Of a stretch of 46,025 nt of DNA, positions 166-43,327 are shown in pieces. Made by a program: the position numbers and the translations under genes. The DNA comes from Candidatus Saccharimonadota bacterium (GTDB lineage: Bacteria; Patescibacteriota; Saccharimonadia; Saccharimonadales; Saccharimonadaceae): positions 1 through 46,025 of the forward strand of contig JAFWLT010000009.1 in the NCBI GenBank assembly GCA_017510925.1, written 5' to 3'. The first letter of the stretch is position 1; every line of letters begins with the position of its first letter. The notes beneath the pieces were generated by a model. It had not been told where the DNA came from. It searched no databases and saw only the letters and a list, made by a program, of their open reading frames with translations.

Positions 166-2433
166 ATGTCTAAAAACTTAGTGATCGTAGAGAGCCCGGC
201 AAAGGCGCACACTATCGAGAAATATCTCGGTAAAGATTTTAAGGTGTTGGCCTCGGTGGGGCATATCAGAAAAGACACTAAGGTTGATAAATCTACTTTT
301 GATGTGACTTACGAAATCGATCCGGAGCACACCAAAATTATCGCAGAACTTAAAAAAGAAGCCAAAGCTGCAGACAAAATCTGGCTCGCAACGGATGAAG
401 ACCGTGAAGGAGAATCTATTTCTTGGCATCTTCTCGAAGTTTTGGGGCTTCCTAAAAATACGGCTAGAATTACTTTTCATGAGATCACTAAACCAGCACT
501 CGACGAAGCCATTAAGAACCCACGCAAAGTAGATATGGATATGGTAGCATCCCAGCAAGCACGGCAAACCTTAGATATGCTCGTAGGTTATGATCTTTCT
601 GATATGGTACGCAAAAAAGTACCAGGCGCTATCAGCGCTGGGCGCGTACAATCACCAGCACTTCGTTTAGTAGTAGAGCGCGAAAAAGAAATTGAGAAAC
701 ACGAGGCTAAGGCTTCTTTTAAAGTTACTGGTAAGTTTTCTAAGGGTGCAGAATTTGATGCTAATTATGATGGCGAAGCGCCAAAAGACGAAAAAGCTGC
801 CGAAAAATTATTGGAAAAACTAGGCCCAGCCGAATTTAAGGTAGAAGACGTAGAAGAAACTGAGGGAACTAAAGCTGGCCCTGTGCCATTTACTACTGCA
901 TCACTTCAGATTGAGGCCAACGCAAAGCTTGGTTTTTCGTCACGCACCACAATGAGTGCAGCTCAAGGTTTGTATCAGGCTGGTCTCATCACCTATCATA
1001 GAACGGATTCCTTAAATCTTTCTAAACAGGCCGTGGCTGCGATCGCCGGTTTTGTAGAAGGGAAGTTTGGCAAGGATTATCTTAAAGTAAAGACTTTTAA
1101 AACCAAAGATGCGTCGGCACAAGAAGCACACGAGGCTATTAGGCCTACCGATGTATTTGTGGGTAATGCTGGCAAGAATGATTACGAAAAACGGCTTTAT
1201 AATTTGATTTGGTCACGCACGGTGGCCACACAAATGGCTAACGCCAAAGTGGCAAAAACTACCATCAAATTATCTAACGATTTTATAGCTAAAGGCGAAG
1301 TGGTGATATTTGACGGGTTTTTGAAAGTCTATGGCAAGAGCAAAGATCTGGAATTACCAAAAGTTAAGAAAGGTGACGCCGTTAAATGCCTCTCCATTAC
1401 AGCAAGACAGAATTTTGGCAAACCACCTGCAAGATATACCGAAGGTTCTTTGGTGAAAAAACTAGAAGAGCTTGGTATTGGCCGGCCTTCTACTTATGCA
1501 TCAATTATGACGGCAATTCAAGCGCGTGGCTATGTAGTAAAAGGTGAATCTGAAGGGGAAGAAAGAGAAGTAGTAGAGTTAGTAGCAAAAGGTGGCAAGG
1601 TTTCTCGTAGTGTAGTAAAAGAGAAATACGGCGCCAACAAGGGTAAACTTATTCCTACACCAATCGGCGAACTCGTAGCAGGATTCCTTACTGATAATTT
1701 CAAAAATATCGTAGATTATAAATTTACGGCCAATATTGAAAAAGATTTGGATCTAGTGGCAGATGCCAAACTAGAACGGGTAAAAATGCTCAAAGATTTT
1801 TATGGGCCGTTTAAAGATACAGTGTTGGTAGCTTCTGGTGTAGAAAGATACAACAATGCCAGGCTACTCGGCCACGATCCAGAAACTGGCAAACCAATTT
1901 TTGCTAAAGTGGGGAAGAACGGTGGCTTTATTCAACTGGGCGACAACGAAAAAGAATCTGGCGAAAAGCCACGTTTCGCACCACTTCCTAAGAGGAAATC
2001 CGTAAAAACTGTAACCTTAGACCAAGCTTTGGAACAGCTAGCTTTGCCGGCATTGCCACGACTACTCGGTACAGCACCGGATGGCGCAGAATTAATTGCA
2101 GCAAGTGGGCCATTTGGGCCATATCTAAAAGGCGGTAAGTATAATATACCGATGAAAGATTTTGATCCTTATACTGTAACTCTTAAAGAGGCCTTGTCTT
2201 TGTACCAAGCTAAGATTGATTCTATCATCGCTGATTGGGATGAAATTATGATTATCAACGGGGCTTATGGGCCATACGTAAAGGGGCCAGGGCGTCGCAA
2301 TAATGTGAGAGTGCCAAAAGAGATGGACCCAAAGAAGATCACTCTAGAGCAGGCTAAAGAAATGCTAGAGAACAAGCCAAAAACTGCTTCTAAAACTCGC
2401 CGTGGCAAACGTGGCGGGCGGAAGAAGAAATAA
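166..2433 (+). CDS. topA: DNA topoisomerase I (type IA)
   Basis: Relaxes negatively supercoiled DNA by transient single-strand cleavage. The Toprim start (NLVIVESPAKA) and the acidic triad DEDREGE are near the N-terminus. The catalytic tyrosine is in ITYHRTDS at about residue 277. The C-terminal third carries repeats of the topoisomerase C-terminal type (GPFGPYLKGGKY, GAYGPYVKGPG) and a Lys/Arg-rich tail. No CxxC zinc fingers are visible, unlike the E. coli enzyme. Length is 755 aa. I chose ATG 166 because homologues begin just before the VIVESPAK motif; an in-frame TTG at 139 would add nine residues translated from AT-rich promoter-like DNA. TATATTAT lies just before the ATG, so the message may be leaderless. 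It converges on the next gene with a 7-nt gap. Confidence 0.95.
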   Translation: MSKNLVIVESPAKAHTIEKYLGKDFKVLASVGHIRKDTKVDKSTFDVTYEIDPEHTKIIAELKKEAKAADKIWLATDEDREGESISWHLLEVLGLPKNTARITFHEITKPALDEAIKNPRKVDMDMVASQQARQTLDMLVGYDLSDMVRKKVPGAISAGRVQSPALRLVVEREKEIEKHEAKASFKVTGKFSKGAEFDANYDGEAPKDEKAAEKLLEKLGPAEFKVEDVEETEGTKAGPVPFTTASLQIEANAKLGFSSRTTMSAAQGLYQAGLITYHRTDSLNLSKQAVAAIAGFVEGKFGKDYLKVKTFKTKDASAQEAHEAIRPTDVFVGNAGKNDYEKRLYNLIWSRTVATQMANAKVAKTTIKLSNDFIAKGEVVIFDGFLKVYGKSKDLELPKVKKGDAVKCLSITARQNFGKPPARYTEGSLVKKLEELGIGRPSTYASIMTAIQARGYVVKGESEGEEREVVELVAKGGKVSRSVVKEKYGANKGKLIPTPIGELVAGFLTDNFKNIVDYKFTANIEKDLDLVADAKLERVKMLKDFYGPFKDTVLVASGVERYNNARLLGHDPETGKPIFAKVGKNGGFIQLGDNEKESGEKPRFAPLPKRKSVKTVTLDQALEQLALPALPRLLGTAPDGAELIAASGPFGPYLKGGKYNIPMKDFDPYTVTLKEALSLYQAKIDSIIADWDEIMIINGAYGPYVKGPGRRNNVRVPKEMDPKKITLEQAKEMLENKPKTASKTRRGKRGGRKKK

Positions 2434-2440
2434 ATAAGTC

Positions 2441-4375
2441 TTAATATCTGGCGATGCAGCGGACTGAACGGCCCACCGTTCTGGCGCCGTGGTCAGTGGA
2501 GTGATAGCTGGAATTGAAGAAAAACACACCATATCTTTCGGTTGCATCATAGGCTGTAGCAGAATAATAATACCCCTCTGAACCAACTTGCACTACTGAT
2601 CCACGAACAAAATCGCCAGCAAGCGCGAACGCAGCACCACCATTCGCTAGGGGTGCACGCATTTTGGCGTAGGTGTTGTAATAAGTATTCCGTAGAGCTC
2701 CTATTTCACTACTGCTTGATCCACCAGTAGGGAGTCTCCAACCAGCTGGGCATAAATCATACTGAGCGAGAGTACTGTTTGAATTAGTACAAATACTAGT
2801 AGCAGATGCGGCACAATAATTATATAACATACCGTATTTCGTACCCGACGTACTATCTATACCTCCACCTGTATAGGCCATTACCGGTGCCGTATAGGTA
2901 TCTGGAATCGAAGAAGCGTATTTCCAACTATTAAATGTAGCAGCATCTATGGTGGTTTCTAGATTAGTATTTAGTTTTGTTAGATTCTCTGTTAAAGCAG
3001 TGGCCCCTAGGTTTAAATTATCTGCCATCCAGATCCTATCATCAGCAAGTTTAGCAACAGTATATTCTTCATTGTCGCGTTTGTCTTTTAAGACTTTCGT
3101 TGCTCCAATAGAAGTGTTTTTTACGATCTGTGGATTCATATCTTGCATATAAGTAATATCGGAAAGGGTGCGAGTGTCATTGAGAATGCAACGTGCAAAT
3201 ATCCCACTGTCTCGAGTAAAGTCATTGCTACCTGCCACCATACTATTTCCATCGTAGCCCATATAGTAAAAATGCGTACTGTCAGATACAGTGGATGACC
3301 AATATTTACCAGCATTAGTAGTATAAATATTGCTATTATAGTAATAGCCACCCACCACAGGATTATATTCCGATGCATAGCTTAAAATACCTATCTGTTC
3401 TGAGATCATTGGCAATCTCCAGCCCTTAGGACAAATGTCGTGGCTAGCATTGGATGACACAGAAGATCCTGAAATAGTTCCAGCAGAGACAGCCTTATAG
3501 TTATACCAGCATCCGGTATTATCATTACCGGAGCAATGCATATTAGCAGTAACATAATCGTTGAAGCCAGCAGTAGAGTCTGCCGGGAGAGTGTATTCTG
3601 CGTCGGTTATGTTTGAATCACTACTTGTGATTTTTGTGCCACCGGCGAGGTTAAGATTTGAGGTCATCCAACAACTACCGTTAATCCACCTTACTGTATA
3701 TTCTTTATTGTCTCTTTTATCCATAACGGTGTAATCACTAGAAGAGGCCAAAGTCCTACACATAGCAGGGGTAAAGTTTTGCATATAATCGAGAACTGGA
3801 TGTGCCACAATATTAAACTGAAGTGTAGTAGAGTAAGACCCAGAAGCTTGGAGGTAGTCAATCTTGGCTGCGAGGGAAAGTTCTGCTTCGTCGTGATTTA
3901 CAGCTGTATCACTTTCCATTAGGGTGTTACCGGATTGGAATGGTACGTAGCCACTGGTGATAGTAGATGGAATTGATGTATTGGAGTTAATCTTGTAACC
4001 CCATTTGTCTGCCGTAAAGGAGGATTGAGTATAAGTACCTGGATCTAGGGTTGGCATGATAGCTGAGATACCATCACTTGTAGTATCCCTATTTAGGTTG
4101 GTACCGTCATTTGGAGTAGAGAGAGTTAGTGTATAGCCGGTTCTATTATTAGTGCCTACTGATATTGTAAAGTCTTTTGAGTCAAAAGTTTTACTGGATG
4201 GATCTAGGTTGATGATGATTGGGTTTGATGGAATAGTGAGGGTGAGAGCTGGAGCTATACTGACGTTATAGTCTACGTCTGTGGCTGAAGCGTTTGATGA
4301 ACTTACTCCCAAAGCCAAAAAGGCAAGTGCAAAAACACACATAGAAAATGTTGATTTATGCACAACCTTAAGCAT
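2441..4375 (-). CDS. Secreted surface protein with two FISUMP modules
   Basis: A predicted exported protein of 644 aa. It has an N-terminal signal peptide (hydrophobic run MCVFALAFLALGV, then SNASA). A domain of about 170 residues follows, with NRTGYTLTLST and DKWGYKIN; the same domain occurs in the large protein at 29102-32950. Two FISUMP-type modules (Fibrobacter succinogenes major paralogous domain) start near residues 198 and 410. Each has the order MQ..., D.RDN.EYTV, WM..NLNL, CP.GWRLP and a terminal RCI. Binding partners are unknown; surface adhesion is an inference. The start is supported by TATAAT 6 nt upstream of the ATG (leaderless). No sortase motif is seen. Confidence 0.8.
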   Translation of the reverse strand: MLKVVHKSTFSMCVFALAFLALGVSSSNASATDVDYNVSIAPALTLTIPSNPIIINLDPSSKTFDSKDFTISVGTNNRTGYTLTLSTPNDGTNLNRDTTSDGISAIMPTLDPGTYTQSSFTADKWGYKINSNTSIPSTITSGYVPFQSGNTLMESDTAVNHDEAELSLAAKIDYLQASGSYSTTLQFNIVAHPVLDYMQNFTPAMCRTLASSSDYTVMDKRDNKEYTVRWINGSCWMTSNLNLAGGTKITSSDSNITDAEYTLPADSTAGFNDYVTANMHCSGNDNTGCWYNYKAVSAGTISGSSVSSNASHDICPKGWRLPMISEQIGILSYASEYNPVVGGYYYNSNIYTTNAGKYWSSTVSDSTHFYYMGYDGNSMVAGSNDFTRDSGIFARCILNDTRTLSDITYMQDMNPQIVKNTSIGATKVLKDKRDNEEYTVAKLADDRIWMADNLNLGATALTENLTKLNTNLETTIDAATFNSWKYASSIPDTYTAPVMAYTGGGIDSTSGTKYGMLYNYCAASATSICTNSNSTLAQYDLCPAGWRLPTGGSSSSEIGALRNTYYNTYAKMRAPLANGGAAFALAGDFVRGSVVQVGSEGYYYSATAYDATERYGVFFFNSSYHSTDHGARTVGRSVRCIARY

Positions 4376-28305: not shown

Positions 28306-28380
28306 TCCCGGGTAGCTCAATGGTGGAGCAAGAAGCTGTTAACTTCGAGGTTGCTGGTTCGAGTCCAGTCCCGGGAGCCA
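28306..28380 (+). tRNA. tRNA-Asn (GTT), CCA encoded
   Basis: Full cloverleaf: 7-bp acceptor stem TCCCGGG/CCCGGGA, D stem GCTC/GAGC, anticodon loop CTGTTAA with GTT at 28338-28340, T stem with loop TTCGAGT, discriminator G, encoded CCA. The outermost anticodon-stem pair is an A-G mismatch. A terminator (AGACC/GGTCT plus T8) follows directly, then a partial copy of the tRNA's own 3' end. Confidence 0.93.
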
Positions 28381-28381
28381 C

Positions 28382-28404
28382 AGACCTCTACGGGTCTTTT
28401 TTTT
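28382..28404 (+). terminator. Terminator of tRNA-Asn
   Basis: AGACC, a 5-nt loop and GGGTCT followed by eight T. A near-identical copy follows the duplicated tRNA fragment at 28446-28467. Confidence 0.65.
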
Positions 28405-28407
28405 CTT

Positions 28408-28467
28408 GGACTCGTTCTTCGAATCGAGTCCAGTCCCGGGAGCCACAGACCTACGGGTCTTTTTTTA
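28408..28467 (+). repeat. T-arm-like hairpin fused to a copy of the tRNA-Asn 3' end and terminator
   Basis: GGACTCG (28408-28414), loop TTCTTCGAAT, CGAGTCC (28425-28431). From 28425 the sequence repeats 27 nt of the tRNA-Asn 3' end including CCA (original 28360-28386), then a second terminator copy lacking 2 nt. The offset is 65 nt. The loop contains the consensus T-loop heptamer TTCGAAT. The same design follows tRNA-Ile at 43176-43222. Confidence 0.8.
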
Positions 28468-29101: not shown

Positions 29102-32100
29102 CTAGCGAGCCATACACCGGACTGGGAAACCGTTGGCGTATGATTGGACGAGAGCGCTATTTACGGAATACGAGCCATCAGATCTTTTCTTAAAATTAAG
29201 GTAATAAGCACCGAGATAAGAATAATTACCACCAGCATCGTGGAATCCTTGGTTAGTAGATGACCAGTAATTAGAATCGCTACCCCCACTACGGAGACCA
29301 TTACTAGCATAATAATATCCTGGGCGTAAGAAATTAGGAATAGTACCAGGGCCTGCATTATTATCAAAATTACTAGCAGTAACATTGTTATCGCTATAAG
29401 CGCTATAAGATGACTCTAAATCTACTCCATAAGAAGTAATTAGCCTATAGTAATCGCCAGTCTTCCAATTAGAATTAGTCCGGGGGTTATCATTGCTAGT
29501 AGTAGATGTAGGCAGTCTCCAACCTCTAGGACACATAGAATAAGCTGCGTTATAACCATCACTAGTAACGACAGTACCACTTGCGTCCTTACCACCAGCT
29601 GTAGCAACTCTCCAAGAATAGTAAGAGTTACATGGATGGTCAGCATAACAATCTGCCTGGTCAGTAGTTTCATTACCAGAGTTATAAACATAATCTTTAG
29701 TGTAATCATAAAAATCAGTAGTACTAATACTAGTATTTGAAGCCGGGAGAGTATAATAGTTATCTGTAGGCACATCAGAAGTGCTAGCATTAAGTGTAGT
29801 ACCACCAGCAAGGTTGAGATCACTTGTCATCCATAATTGGCCATCAAGAAGTTTAGCTACAGTGTAATCTTTGTTGTCACGAGCATCTTTAAGAGTGTAG
29901 GTAACCTCAGTTGCAGTATTGGTTACAATTTGTGGATTTATCTGTTGCATATAAGTAATATCATCCACCGTCCGGTTGTCGTCCTTAATACAACGCACCG
30001 AGAAACCATAGTAGCGATAGCCGTAGTTTTGTGGAGTTACTCCTGATGCATTGACGCCAAGATCGTGCATATAGTTACCATCAGTATAGCGCGTAGAAGA
30101 CCAAAAGACGGCATATGTATTTTGGTATTGGGTGGTACCACCAACAATATAACCTGAAAGTGGGGTACTGAGTGCTGCTTTGTAGGTAGAATGGTTGGAC
30201 CCATAAGCTTCGTAAAGCTTTTGGTATTCCCCGGTTGCGCCACTAGTAGGCATACGCCAACCACTTGGACAAACATCTTCAGAAGCATCACCAGTGCCAG
30301 CGCCAGATGCATAACAATACGATCCAGCCGATGCTGCGCAGAAGTTGTAATATATACCAACTTTACCATTACCAGCGCCATAATTGGTGGTAGTAGTATT
30401 CTTGGAGGCAGTATTAATCTTTGGTAAGTTATAAGCATCTGCCCAAGAACTACTCACGTTATTTTTGAGATTAGTAAGGCTAGCAGTGGATGCATTAGTA
30501 GTAGATTCCGTAAGATTAGCCTGCACACTGGAGTCGGTAAGATCTAGCGCGAGGTTGTCTAGCATCCAAATGTTGCCATCGGCAAGCTTGGAGACTTTGT
30601 ACTTCCCTCCGTCACGATTGTCTTTGAGCATAGCCGTATCACCAGTGTTTGGCATTAAGCTGTCTAGTTCACTTTGCGAGATATTTTGCATTACTGGCAA
30701 ATCACTATCATCCTTGATGCAACGTACGTGAATACCATCACCACGACCATCGTTATTATTTGGGTCATAGAACATATTTGTACCATTGTACATCAAGAGG
30801 TAGCGTCCATAATCCTGCGATGCGCTATTGGTAGAACTCCACCAAATACCATAGCTTGTACCGAGAGTACCATTATAGTATCGGCCACCCTGTATTGGGC
30901 TAAACTGGGTCCCATAATCAACAGCGTTTATAACTTCTGTAGAGTTTGGAAGACGCCAGCCTTTAGGGCAAATGCTATACTCTGCTTCGTTTGTATTTGA
31001 CGAACCGGTGATGGTTTTTGCAGAAGCTGCAGCGTAGTTATAATAAGCGCCGTAAGTAGAATTACAAGTTATATAATCATCGTCATAAGAGTTAGTTTTG
31101 CCTGCAACCGTAACAGTAGAAGTGGTATAATCGGTGGATACGTTAGAGTCTGCGCTAGTAAGAGTTTTGGCAGCGTAGCCAGAACCATAAGTACTGCCTG
31201 TGCCGTTACAACCAATAGCTAAGTTTCTAATCATCCAAACGTTACCATCGCTAAACTTCTTTACTGTATATATCTGGCCATCGCGTTCGTCTTCTAGGGT
31301 CTTGGTTTCGTTTACAGCCATCGCGCCAGCATCTTGGCTAGAGAATTTTTGCATAGTCTGGCGCATAATACAGCGGATAGAGAACCCATTGCGACTACGA
31401 TAGCCAGCTGTACTGTTAACAAATGAAGATCCATCATATTGAGTTTGGTATCTATTTTGAGCAGAGGACGAAGTAGATGTCCACCAAACTCCCACATTCT
31501 GCCGTTTTTCGCCATCAATATAATATCCGGTAACTGCTGCATTGAAGTTTGTAGTGGCACCACTCGTAGAAGTCATCGCTGTCATTTCGCTATATGACGG
31601 GAGTTTCCAGCCAGCCGGACAAATATCCTGTGTCGCATCAATAGTATTAGAATTAGTAGAAATAGTACCTGCACTAGCTGCATAAAAATTATAATAAACG
31701 CCGACATTGTTGTCTCCAGAATCTTTAGCGCAAGCATAATTATAACCGTTAGTAGAGTCACAGTGGCCAGTATAAGACGAATCAGTAGAAACTATACTGT
31801 AGGCAGATACATCAAAATCGGGCCCAGAAAAGTTCGACTGATCAGCTGAAATAGTACCAGTAGTACGTAAGTTCTGAGTCATCCAACAATTACCGTTTAT
31901 CCACCTTACCGTGTATTCATTGCCATCACGAGAATCTCTGAGCGTGTAATCTCCTGACGATGCACGAGTTCTACAAAGTTCTGGGGTGAAGGATTGCATA
32001 GTGTCCCCCATCTCCCATATAGCATAGAGATTAGCAGTAGCAGTACCAGTGGATGGAATGGATGTGAAGGTAAAGGTATCACCAGACTGGTAAGTAGTGC

Positions 32101-32950
32101 CAGTACAAGTAGATGGGTTGGTAGTATGATCTATAGTACCATAGCACCAGCCTTTAAATATAGCACCAGATCTAGTTGGGTTAGTTGCTGAGATAATAAA
32201 TTCTGATGCAGTGATGTTAGACTGTGCATCTTGTTCTAGTACAGTAGCTGTACCATCATAGTTATCTATATAGTCTATTTGGTATGAAATAGGATTACCA
32301 ACAGCAGTAAGTACAAAGGTATTAGTATAAGTACCAGTTTGTTTCTCGTAGTCTACTCTAGCACCTAGAGCAAGAGTAAAGTTGTCTGATGTACCAGTGG
32401 TGTTTGGTGCATTTGTGCTGTAGATGGTTTTAGCAGTAGATGATGTAGGAGCTGCCATAAAGTCTGTGGTAGTAGTGTTATTGACGTTTAGTCTGTATCC
32501 CCATTTGTTAGCATAGGTAGAAGCAGAGCCTGTCCTGAAGTCAGATTCTGTAGTGTTAGATGTAATGGTATCTAGAGTATCTCCTGTGATGTTGTTTACT
32601 AGTTGGCCTGATGTATCACTGCCGAGCAAAGTTACACTATAGCCCGTGAGGTTGTCTGTGGTAACTGAGAATTCTGCTTGGTCTGCTGCAGCTGAGATAG
32701 CAAAGGTACCATCCTTTGAGGTTGGTGTGATATCTACTGAAGCTGTATCTTTTGATGAGATGATAGAAAGTGAGGTAGTAGCAGGAACGGTTGTAGCTTC
32801 TGCATCTTCTTTATGTTTAGCAATAGGAAATACAGCAAGGAGAGTGAGGATAGCGAGAGCACAGAAAGCTCCCGTACTTACAATACGAAATCTCCTAGAG
32901 CGAGATATTACACGCTCTGTACCACTGTTTGTTTTCCCGTTAAAAAACAT
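29102..32950 (-). CDS. Giant secreted surface protein with four FISUMP modules
   Basis: 1282 aa. N-terminal membrane/signal segment (about 25-45, IVSTGAFCALAILTLLAVF), then the LTGYSVTLLG...NKWGYRLNV domain shared with the protein at 2441-4375. An InlB B-repeat/Listeria-Bacteroides-like domain (IDYIDNYDGTATV, FKGWCYG, ANLYAIWE) lies before residue 317. Four FISUMP-type modules start near residues 318, 533, 754 and 1001, each with a D.RDG/N motif, WM..NL, CP.GWRLP-like and a closing RCI/RCM. Likely exposed on the cell surface; adhesion or host contact is an inference. No anchoring motif is seen at the C-terminus, which ends on the last module. Confidence 0.8.
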   Translation of the reverse strand: MFFNGKTNSGTERVISRSRRFRIVSTGAFCALAILTLLAVFPIAKHKEDAEATTVPATTSLSIISSKDTASVDITPTSKDGTFAISAAADQAEFSVTTDNLTGYSVTLLGSDTSGQLVNNITGDTLDTITSNTTESDFRTGSASTYANKWGYRLNVNNTTTTDFMAAPTSSTAKTIYSTNAPNTTGTSDNFTLALGARVDYEKQTGTYTNTFVLTAVGNPISYQIDYIDNYDGTATVLEQDAQSNITASEFIISATNPTRSGAIFKGWCYGTIDHTTNPSTCTGTTYQSGDTFTFTSIPSTGTATANLYAIWEMGDTMQSFTPELCRTRASSGDYTLRDSRDGNEYTVRWINGNCWMTQNLRTTGTISADQSNFSGPDFDVSAYSIVSTDSSYTGHCDSTNGYNYACAKDSGDNNVGVYYNFYAASAGTISTNSNTIDATQDICPAGWKLPSYSEMTAMTSTSGATTNFNAAVTGYYIDGEKRQNVGVWWTSTSSSAQNRYQTQYDGSSFVNSTAGYRSRNGFSIRCIMRQTMQKFSSQDAGAMAVNETKTLEDERDGQIYTVKKFSDGNVWMIRNLAIGCNGTGSTYGSGYAAKTLTSADSNVSTDYTTSTVTVAGKTNSYDDDYITCNSTYGAYYNYAAASAKTITGSSNTNEAEYSICPKGWRLPNSTEVINAVDYGTQFSPIQGGRYYNGTLGTSYGIWWSSTNSASQDYGRYLLMYNGTNMFYDPNNNDGRGDGIHVRCIKDDSDLPVMQNISQSELDSLMPNTGDTAMLKDNRDGGKYKVSKLADGNIWMLDNLALDLTDSSVQANLTESTTNASTASLTNLKNNVSSSWADAYNLPKINTASKNTTTTNYGAGNGKVGIYYNFCAASAGSYCYASGAGTGDASEDVCPSGWRMPTSGATGEYQKLYEAYGSNHSTYKAALSTPLSGYIVGGTTQYQNTYAVFWSSTRYTDGNYMHDLGVNASGVTPQNYGYRYYGFSVRCIKDDNRTVDDITYMQQINPQIVTNTATEVTYTLKDARDNKDYTVAKLLDGQLWMTSDLNLAGGTTLNASTSDVPTDNYYTLPASNTSISTTDFYDYTKDYVYNSGNETTDQADCYADHPCNSYYSWRVATAGGKDASGTVVTSDGYNAAYSMCPRGWRLPTSTTSNDNPRTNSNWKTGDYYRLITSYGVDLESSYSAYSDNNVTASNFDNNAGPGTIPNFLRPGYYYASNGLRSGGSDSNYWSSTNQGFHDAGGNYSYLGAYYLNFKKRSDGSYSVNSALVQSYANGFPVRCMAR

Positions 32951-43175: not shown

Positions 43176-43222
43176 CATAAAAAATGGTGGGGATATGTGG
43201 ACTTGATTCGAAGAACAAGTCC
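43176..43222 (-). repeat. T-arm-like hairpin fused to a copy of the tRNA-Ile 3' end
   Basis: On the minus strand GGACTTG, loop TTCTTCGAAT, CAAGTCC, then an exact 31-nt copy (43176-43206 against 43242-43272) of the T-arm 3' half, acceptor 3' strand and CCA of tRNA-Ile plus 9 nt downstream. The offset is 66 nt. The loop is identical to that at 28415-28424, while the stem differs by one base pair that follows the host tRNA. Confidence 0.8.
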
Positions 43223-43250
43223 TGGTTATTAGTTTTATAGACATAAAAAA

Positions 43251-43327
43251 TGGTGGGGATATGTGGACTTGAACCACAGACCTCGTCATTATCAGTGACG
43301 CGCTCTAACCAGCTGAGCTATATCCCC
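43251..43327 (-). tRNA. tRNA-Ile (GAT), CCA encoded
   Basis: 77 nt on the minus strand: acceptor GGGGATA/TATCCCC, anticodon loop CTGATAA with GAT, T loop TTCAAGT, encoded CCA. It follows tRNA-Ala by 3 nt in the same transcript. Confidence 0.95.

Follow-up and report, generated by a model that had tools for sequence, protein, structure and literature searches.

The window analysed here is a stretch of 46,025 nucleotides, contig 8 of the host genome (Candidatus Saccharimonadota bacterium, G000; 662 kb, 9 contigs). The genes for tRNA-Ile and tRNA-Asn are each followed by a short unit that contains a hairpin (H2) and repeats the tRNA 3′ end at its far side. The features are:

28306-28380, plus strand: host gene tRNA-Asn (GTT), called by ARAGORN
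28381-28445, plus strand: Asn unit of 65 bp, class A′, opening with a terminator-like hairpin (AGACC-TCTACG-GGTCT-TTTTTTT)
28408-28431, plus strand: hairpin H2 of the Asn unit, GGACTCG-TTCTTCGAAT-CGAGTCC
28424-28452, plus strand: second copy of the tRNA-Asn 3′ end, exact against 28359-28387
43176-43206, minus strand: direct repeat copy 2 at tRNA-Ile, exact
43185-43250, minus strand: Ile unit of 66 bp, gene-less, from the first base past CCA to the CCA of the copy
43199-43222, minus strand: hairpin H2 of the Ile unit, GGACTTG, TTCTTCGAAT, CAAGTCC, with a bulged T
43233-43248, minus strand: hairpin H1 of the Ile unit, TTTTAT-GTCT-ATAAAA, adjoining the 3′ side of tRNA-Ile, read from the sequence and of a pattern common to other class A units
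43242-43272, minus strand: direct repeat copy 1, from the T-loop to 9 nt beyond the CCA of tRNA-Ile
43251-43327, minus strand: host gene tRNA-Ile (GAT), called by ARAGORN

The repeats are exact, as an earlier note on this DNA had described: the tRNA-Ile repeat (TCAAGTCCACATATCCCCACCATTTTTTATG) is 31 nt long at an offset of 66, and that of tRNA-Asn is 29 nt at an offset of 65. The two stems that it had read, GGACTTG/CAAGTCC and GGACTCG/CGAGTCC, are likewise present, and the right arm CAAGTCC of the Ile hairpin is the beginning of the tRNA 3′-end copy. The loop reported as identical at the two loci is indeed TTCTTCGAAT at both, but these 10 nt are partly stem: TTC pairs with GAA round a 3-nt loop and one T is bulged, giving 10 pairs in total. 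TTCTTCGAAT occurs only at these two sites in the window (0.18 expected; two reached in 0 of 100 shuffles). A third copy of the hairpin lies 3′ of tRNA-Tyr in the same genome. The window also encodes two large proteins that look secreted and contain repeated segments of the DICPKGWRLP type (29102-32950 and 2441-4375, minus strand).

Comparison of the regions downstream of tRNA genes across relatives, which the earlier note had proposed, gave further copies, and covariation between arm and tRNA tail was seen among them. The bacteria concerned, Saccharibacteria and relatives, are minute and parasitic. The units form at least five families of about 57-260 bp, with no genes in any. Each starts at or just past CCA; hairpin H1 comes first, followed by the left arm, the core and a repeat of the tRNA tail that ends in CCA. 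The left arm is complementary to the tRNA 3′-end copy within the unit. Family A has the core TTCTTCGAAT and variants, and A′ is the form with a terminator. Family B has an almost full-length inverted tail and a long AT-rich H1, in the layout tail, inverted tail, tail. Family C is about 138 nt long and has five helices round a junction, a multi-branched fold that is conserved together with its internal-loop bases. Families D and P have further cores. H1 is terminator-like in many families, the position in the tRNA at which the repeat starts differs between families, and bulged bases are present in the paired arms. Where apical loops measure 3-4 nt, most read GNA or GNNA on a single strand in each family: the minus strand for short units (73:7), a bias that for class A partly reflects one inherited loop with which the set was collected, and the plus strand in class C (25:1). 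In the class C loci L152, L149 and L140, H1 is swapped for a long imperfect hairpin, AAAAGCCGGCATCTCGGC...TCTTGCTCGCTC...GCCGGCTTTT, that is common to several genomes and may represent a further small mobile element that entered H1.

In the host genome, units lie at 8 of 44 tRNA genes by a strict test, with a ninth, Arg-tct, by a looser one; in G072 they lie at about 20 of 45. Beyond the window, G000 has units of several families on C3, C4, C6 and C7 (loci L068, L071, L073, L078, L079), 3′ of tRNA-Tyr, Ala(ggc), Lys(ctt), Ser(gga), Gly(gcc) and Phe. The class A hairpin pattern occurs in 27 of 100 congeneric genomes, always with a tRNA upstream on the same strand wherever a tRNA could be called. 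A 22-base version, matched exactly, is present in 34 stretches among 257 Gb of GTDB genomes, all Saccharibacteria and mostly from ruminant guts, and the only records with the class A hairpin outside the host genome are those named Candidatus Saccharibacteria. Tandem and mixed arrays are common, such as a run of four 67-nt units in G072 and, in G054, the array C-A-A′.

The class C model matches 61 of 295 Saccharimonadales genomes, in 17 of 143 genera, and each of 30 loci chosen solely on model score has a tRNA upstream on the same strand. One match (E 1.1e-10) lies in a distant Patescibacteria family, 3′ of tRNA-Arg in G588, and has an exact tail copy at its end. Most of the weaker class C matches across the phylum lack an adjacent tRNA and are probably due to chance. 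An exception is a class C-like sequence in G625, also of a distant Patescibacteria family (L306, around 1501-1630, minus strand): it has no recognisable upstream tRNA gene either, but its end resembles the 3′ end of tRNA-Ser, and it may be an orphan unit.

Comparison of empty and filled sites shows where the units begin and end. The tRNA-Lys site has no unit in G056, a 120-bp class D unit in G061 and a 78-bp class A′ unit in G085; the same 45-base downstream flank, identical or one base off across the three genomes, lies directly past CCA when the site is empty and past the tail copy when it is filled. At tRNA-Tyr, a class A unit sits between the tRNA and a class C unit in G083, and the class C unit is directly past CCA in G003 and G103. 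The Phe site is filled in G000 and empty in G007, and the Val site is empty in G000 and filled in G007. Insertion is thus exact, directly 3′ of CCA, recurrent and tRNA-proximal, and the tRNA is left intact because a second copy of its 3′ end stands at the far end of the unit. No excised or circular forms and no movement were seen directly among the genomes compared, one per species.

The earlier note had further claimed that the left arm varies with its host tRNA, and this is borne out. Over 37 distinct class A copies at 25 tRNA species, the arm makes 7.05 of 8 pairs with its own tRNA (shuffled 5.54±0.13, maximum 6.03 in 5000 shuffles), and over class C it makes 5.44 of 7 (shuffled 3.00±0.19, maximum 3.67 in 2000 shuffles), where the shuffles ignore relatedness. 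The closing helix is made of the element's left arm and the tRNA-tail copy, and in class C all 7 of its 7 pairs have changed on both sides. A class C consensus from 24 sequences has 42 pairs, 35 of them changed on both sides. With 44 sequences aligned, 94.9% of cells pair and the covariation score is 0.72 (shuffled 0.19±0.01; slid at most 0.125), values that are flattered by an alignment fitted to the model.

Almost identical cores bear different arms, each fitted to its local tail. The nearest core of most class C copies is in another genome, often at a different tRNA. Cores in G373 that are 89% identical stand at a Leu tail and at tRNA-Val with different arms, and the Tyr units of G083 and G103 have cores that are 99% identical and differ in arm and tail. 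The arm follows the local copy: in L255, whose tail copy has diverged from the tRNA, the arm tracks the copy, and at the tRNA-Ile of L177 (G047) the T-stem strand is CCTGA, the downstream copy is CCACA and the arm fits CCACA. Copies whose arm departs from its host tRNA, which the earlier note had named as counter-evidence, exist but are few (L009, L016, L020, L031 and L100, for example), mostly with one mismatch, usually an A.C. A single mechanism at unrelated tRNAs, which the earlier note had deduced from two loci, is strongly supported across many tRNAs and genomes.

Literature searches did not find such units described, and we regard them as real and widespread gene-less insertions, tailored to their target and of a kind apparently undescribed so far, with a well supported architecture. 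Of the mechanisms that the earlier note had offered, fold-back synthesis fits best. We tentatively propose, at a little below an even chance, that the units are target-tailored, folded, non-coding DNA cassettes at tRNA 3′ ends whose arm is recopied for each target by fold-back synthesis, and that they are mobile elements of a new kind, occurring in Saccharimonadales and other Patescibacteria, whose several core families are independent of one another. These “tRNA-tail cassettes” would enter directly 3′ of CCA and leave a tail copy at the far end, and a folded single strand or a cruciform would be the form in which they are inserted and maintained. Intrastrand fold-back DNA synthesis would rewrite the arm, with the local tail copy as its template. 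In class A, priming may occur on the minus strand at the mini-hairpin TTC-GAA-GAA, with GGACTNG copied into CNAGTCC; a strand ending ...GGACTCGATTCGAAGAA-3′ would prime itself and write CGAGTCC. The order on the class A minus strand (tail complement, TTC-GAA-GAA, arm) fits fold-back. Priming from the loop would recopy the arm while preserving the loop, and rewriting of the arm would let a single core live at many tRNAs. Hairpin-loop priming has been proposed for template-switch mutation, in which stems are fixed by compensatory changes and the loop is kept (PMC8794818). Against fold-back, some copies retain mismatched arms, and neither the rewriting of the multi-branched class C closing helix nor the persistence of bulges and internal loops is obviously accounted for.

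Insertion may depend on a housekeeping enzyme, Xer for example, or on one supplied from outside. The only PF00589 protein of G000 is a Xer-like tyrosine recombinase; Xer-type recombinases are encoded in nearly all genomes, and extra integrases in some. A Y1 transposase (PF01797) is absent from G000 and present in only 2 of 60 genomes, and we rejected it as the machine on this inconsistent presence. Reverse transcriptase (PF00078) was rejected on the same ground: it occurs in 39 of 60 congeneric genomes, with one to four domains each that are perhaps those of diversity-generating retroelements, and is absent from G000 and 21 of the 60, including the class C carriers G010, G036, G046 and G055. 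A past or transient enzyme is possible.

An RNA-level explanation, also raised by the earlier note, would have the units act as RNA (non-coding RNAs, terminators or tRNA trailers), with selection on the transcript maintaining their helices. Many units do open with terminator-like hairpins, class C has its conserved multi-branched fold and internal-loop bases, and class A H2 is followed on the minus strand by GCTTTTT and looks like an antisense terminator. Yet the terminator-like hairpins often lie on the tRNA side of the core, and precise insertion with a tail copy is left unexplained by an RNA role. G.T pairs are expected often in RNA helices. RNA folding energy alone is indecisive on the strand of class C, so pair types were counted: G.T to A.C is 50:39 in class C against 165:10 in acceptor and T stems of tRNAs from these genomes (Fisher 2.5e-13), and 1:6 in class A arms. 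The near-equal counts in class C argue for folding as DNA, not RNA. Part of this balance can come from neutral decay of old copies, but decay adds equally to G.T and A.C, and the G.T excess is far below the tRNA level. When closed by C-G, GNA and GNNA loops give very stable DNA hairpins. GNRA and CUUG loops are stable in DNA and RNA alike (PMC8794818). A search of Rfam 15 with four class C loci gave only tRNA above the cut-off. We therefore think selection on RNA structure improbable.

The main rival is an integron-like use of the folded strand: a tyrosine recombinase, Xer or phage, would join a folded single strand to the tRNA end, and arms would persist only because unfolded copies are immobile, with no special rewriting. 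The tail repeat, tRNA-proximal insertion and mixed arrays resemble attI-proximal insertion of cassettes, the bulged bases in the arms recall the extrahelical ones of folded attC bottom strands (PMC3053210), and the Xer-type recombinases are nearly everywhere. The fit of the arm to each new tRNA is left unexplained, however, no attC consensus boxes were seen by eye, and the repeat start varies between families; we consider this rival rather unlikely. The 3′ end of a tRNA is the usual att core of tRNA-targeting integrative elements, and the units could be scars or deleted forms of such elements, cut by double-stranded tyrosine integrases. The direct repeat and the additional integrases of some genomes would suit it. 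Against it, no larger element flanked by the same tRNA-tail copies was found in the checked regions of G000, G072, G061 and G056, a pattern related to the class A hairpin has zero matches among the 2.9 million viral contigs of IMG/VR, recurrent homologous cores of constant size are unlike scars, and arm tailoring is unexplained; this reading is quite improbable. The integrase core that the earlier note had suggested is not supported: the units are gene-less, the checked regions gave no larger element of this kind, and the start of the repeat in the tRNA varies with the family. Least probable, and given very little weight here, is that no mobile element exists: each unit would originate in place, through replication slippage and template switching at the end of a tRNA gene, and later persist or decay. 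The class B layout and the tandem duplications would suit this, and template-switch mutations can create hairpins (PMC8794818). Chance would not repeat homologous cores such as class C in 17 genera or the TTCTTCGAAT hairpin at 25 tRNA species, so a local origin is largely refuted for classes A and C.

If the fold-back cassette reading is true, it adds a further class of mobile DNA, one without genes, in a bacterial group that is among the largest and the least tractable, provides a natural system for the rewriting of hairpins by fold-back (template switching), and accounts for part of the non-coding space near tRNA genes in reduced genomes.

We know of no element with a complement of its target that changes along with the target, and each known system shares part of the design. 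Like integron cassettes and their attC sites, the units are inserted next to a fixed site, form arrays and have a folded strand with bulged bases and with arms whose sequence varies without loss of the fold; unlike them, they are gene-less, have no demonstrated integron integrase or attI, repeat the tRNA tail and carry one arm that is the complement of that tail. With tRNA-targeted integrative elements they share the flanking direct repeat of the tRNA 3′ end, the intact tRNA and tandem accretion, but they are only 57-260 bp long, with no integrase or cargo between the repeats, and have an arm tailored to each tRNA and a family-dependent repeat start. REP/BIME sequences and MITEs are likewise short, non-coding, palindromic and non-autonomous repeats with several families per genome, whereas the units are bound to tRNA 3′ ends, their arms follow the target rather than being fixed, and Y1 transposase is nearly absent. 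The hairpins of template switching (quasi-palindromes) also have a stem rewritten to the opposite arm and a loop that is kept; these are mutations of existing sequence, whereas the units are homologous cores inserted at many loci.
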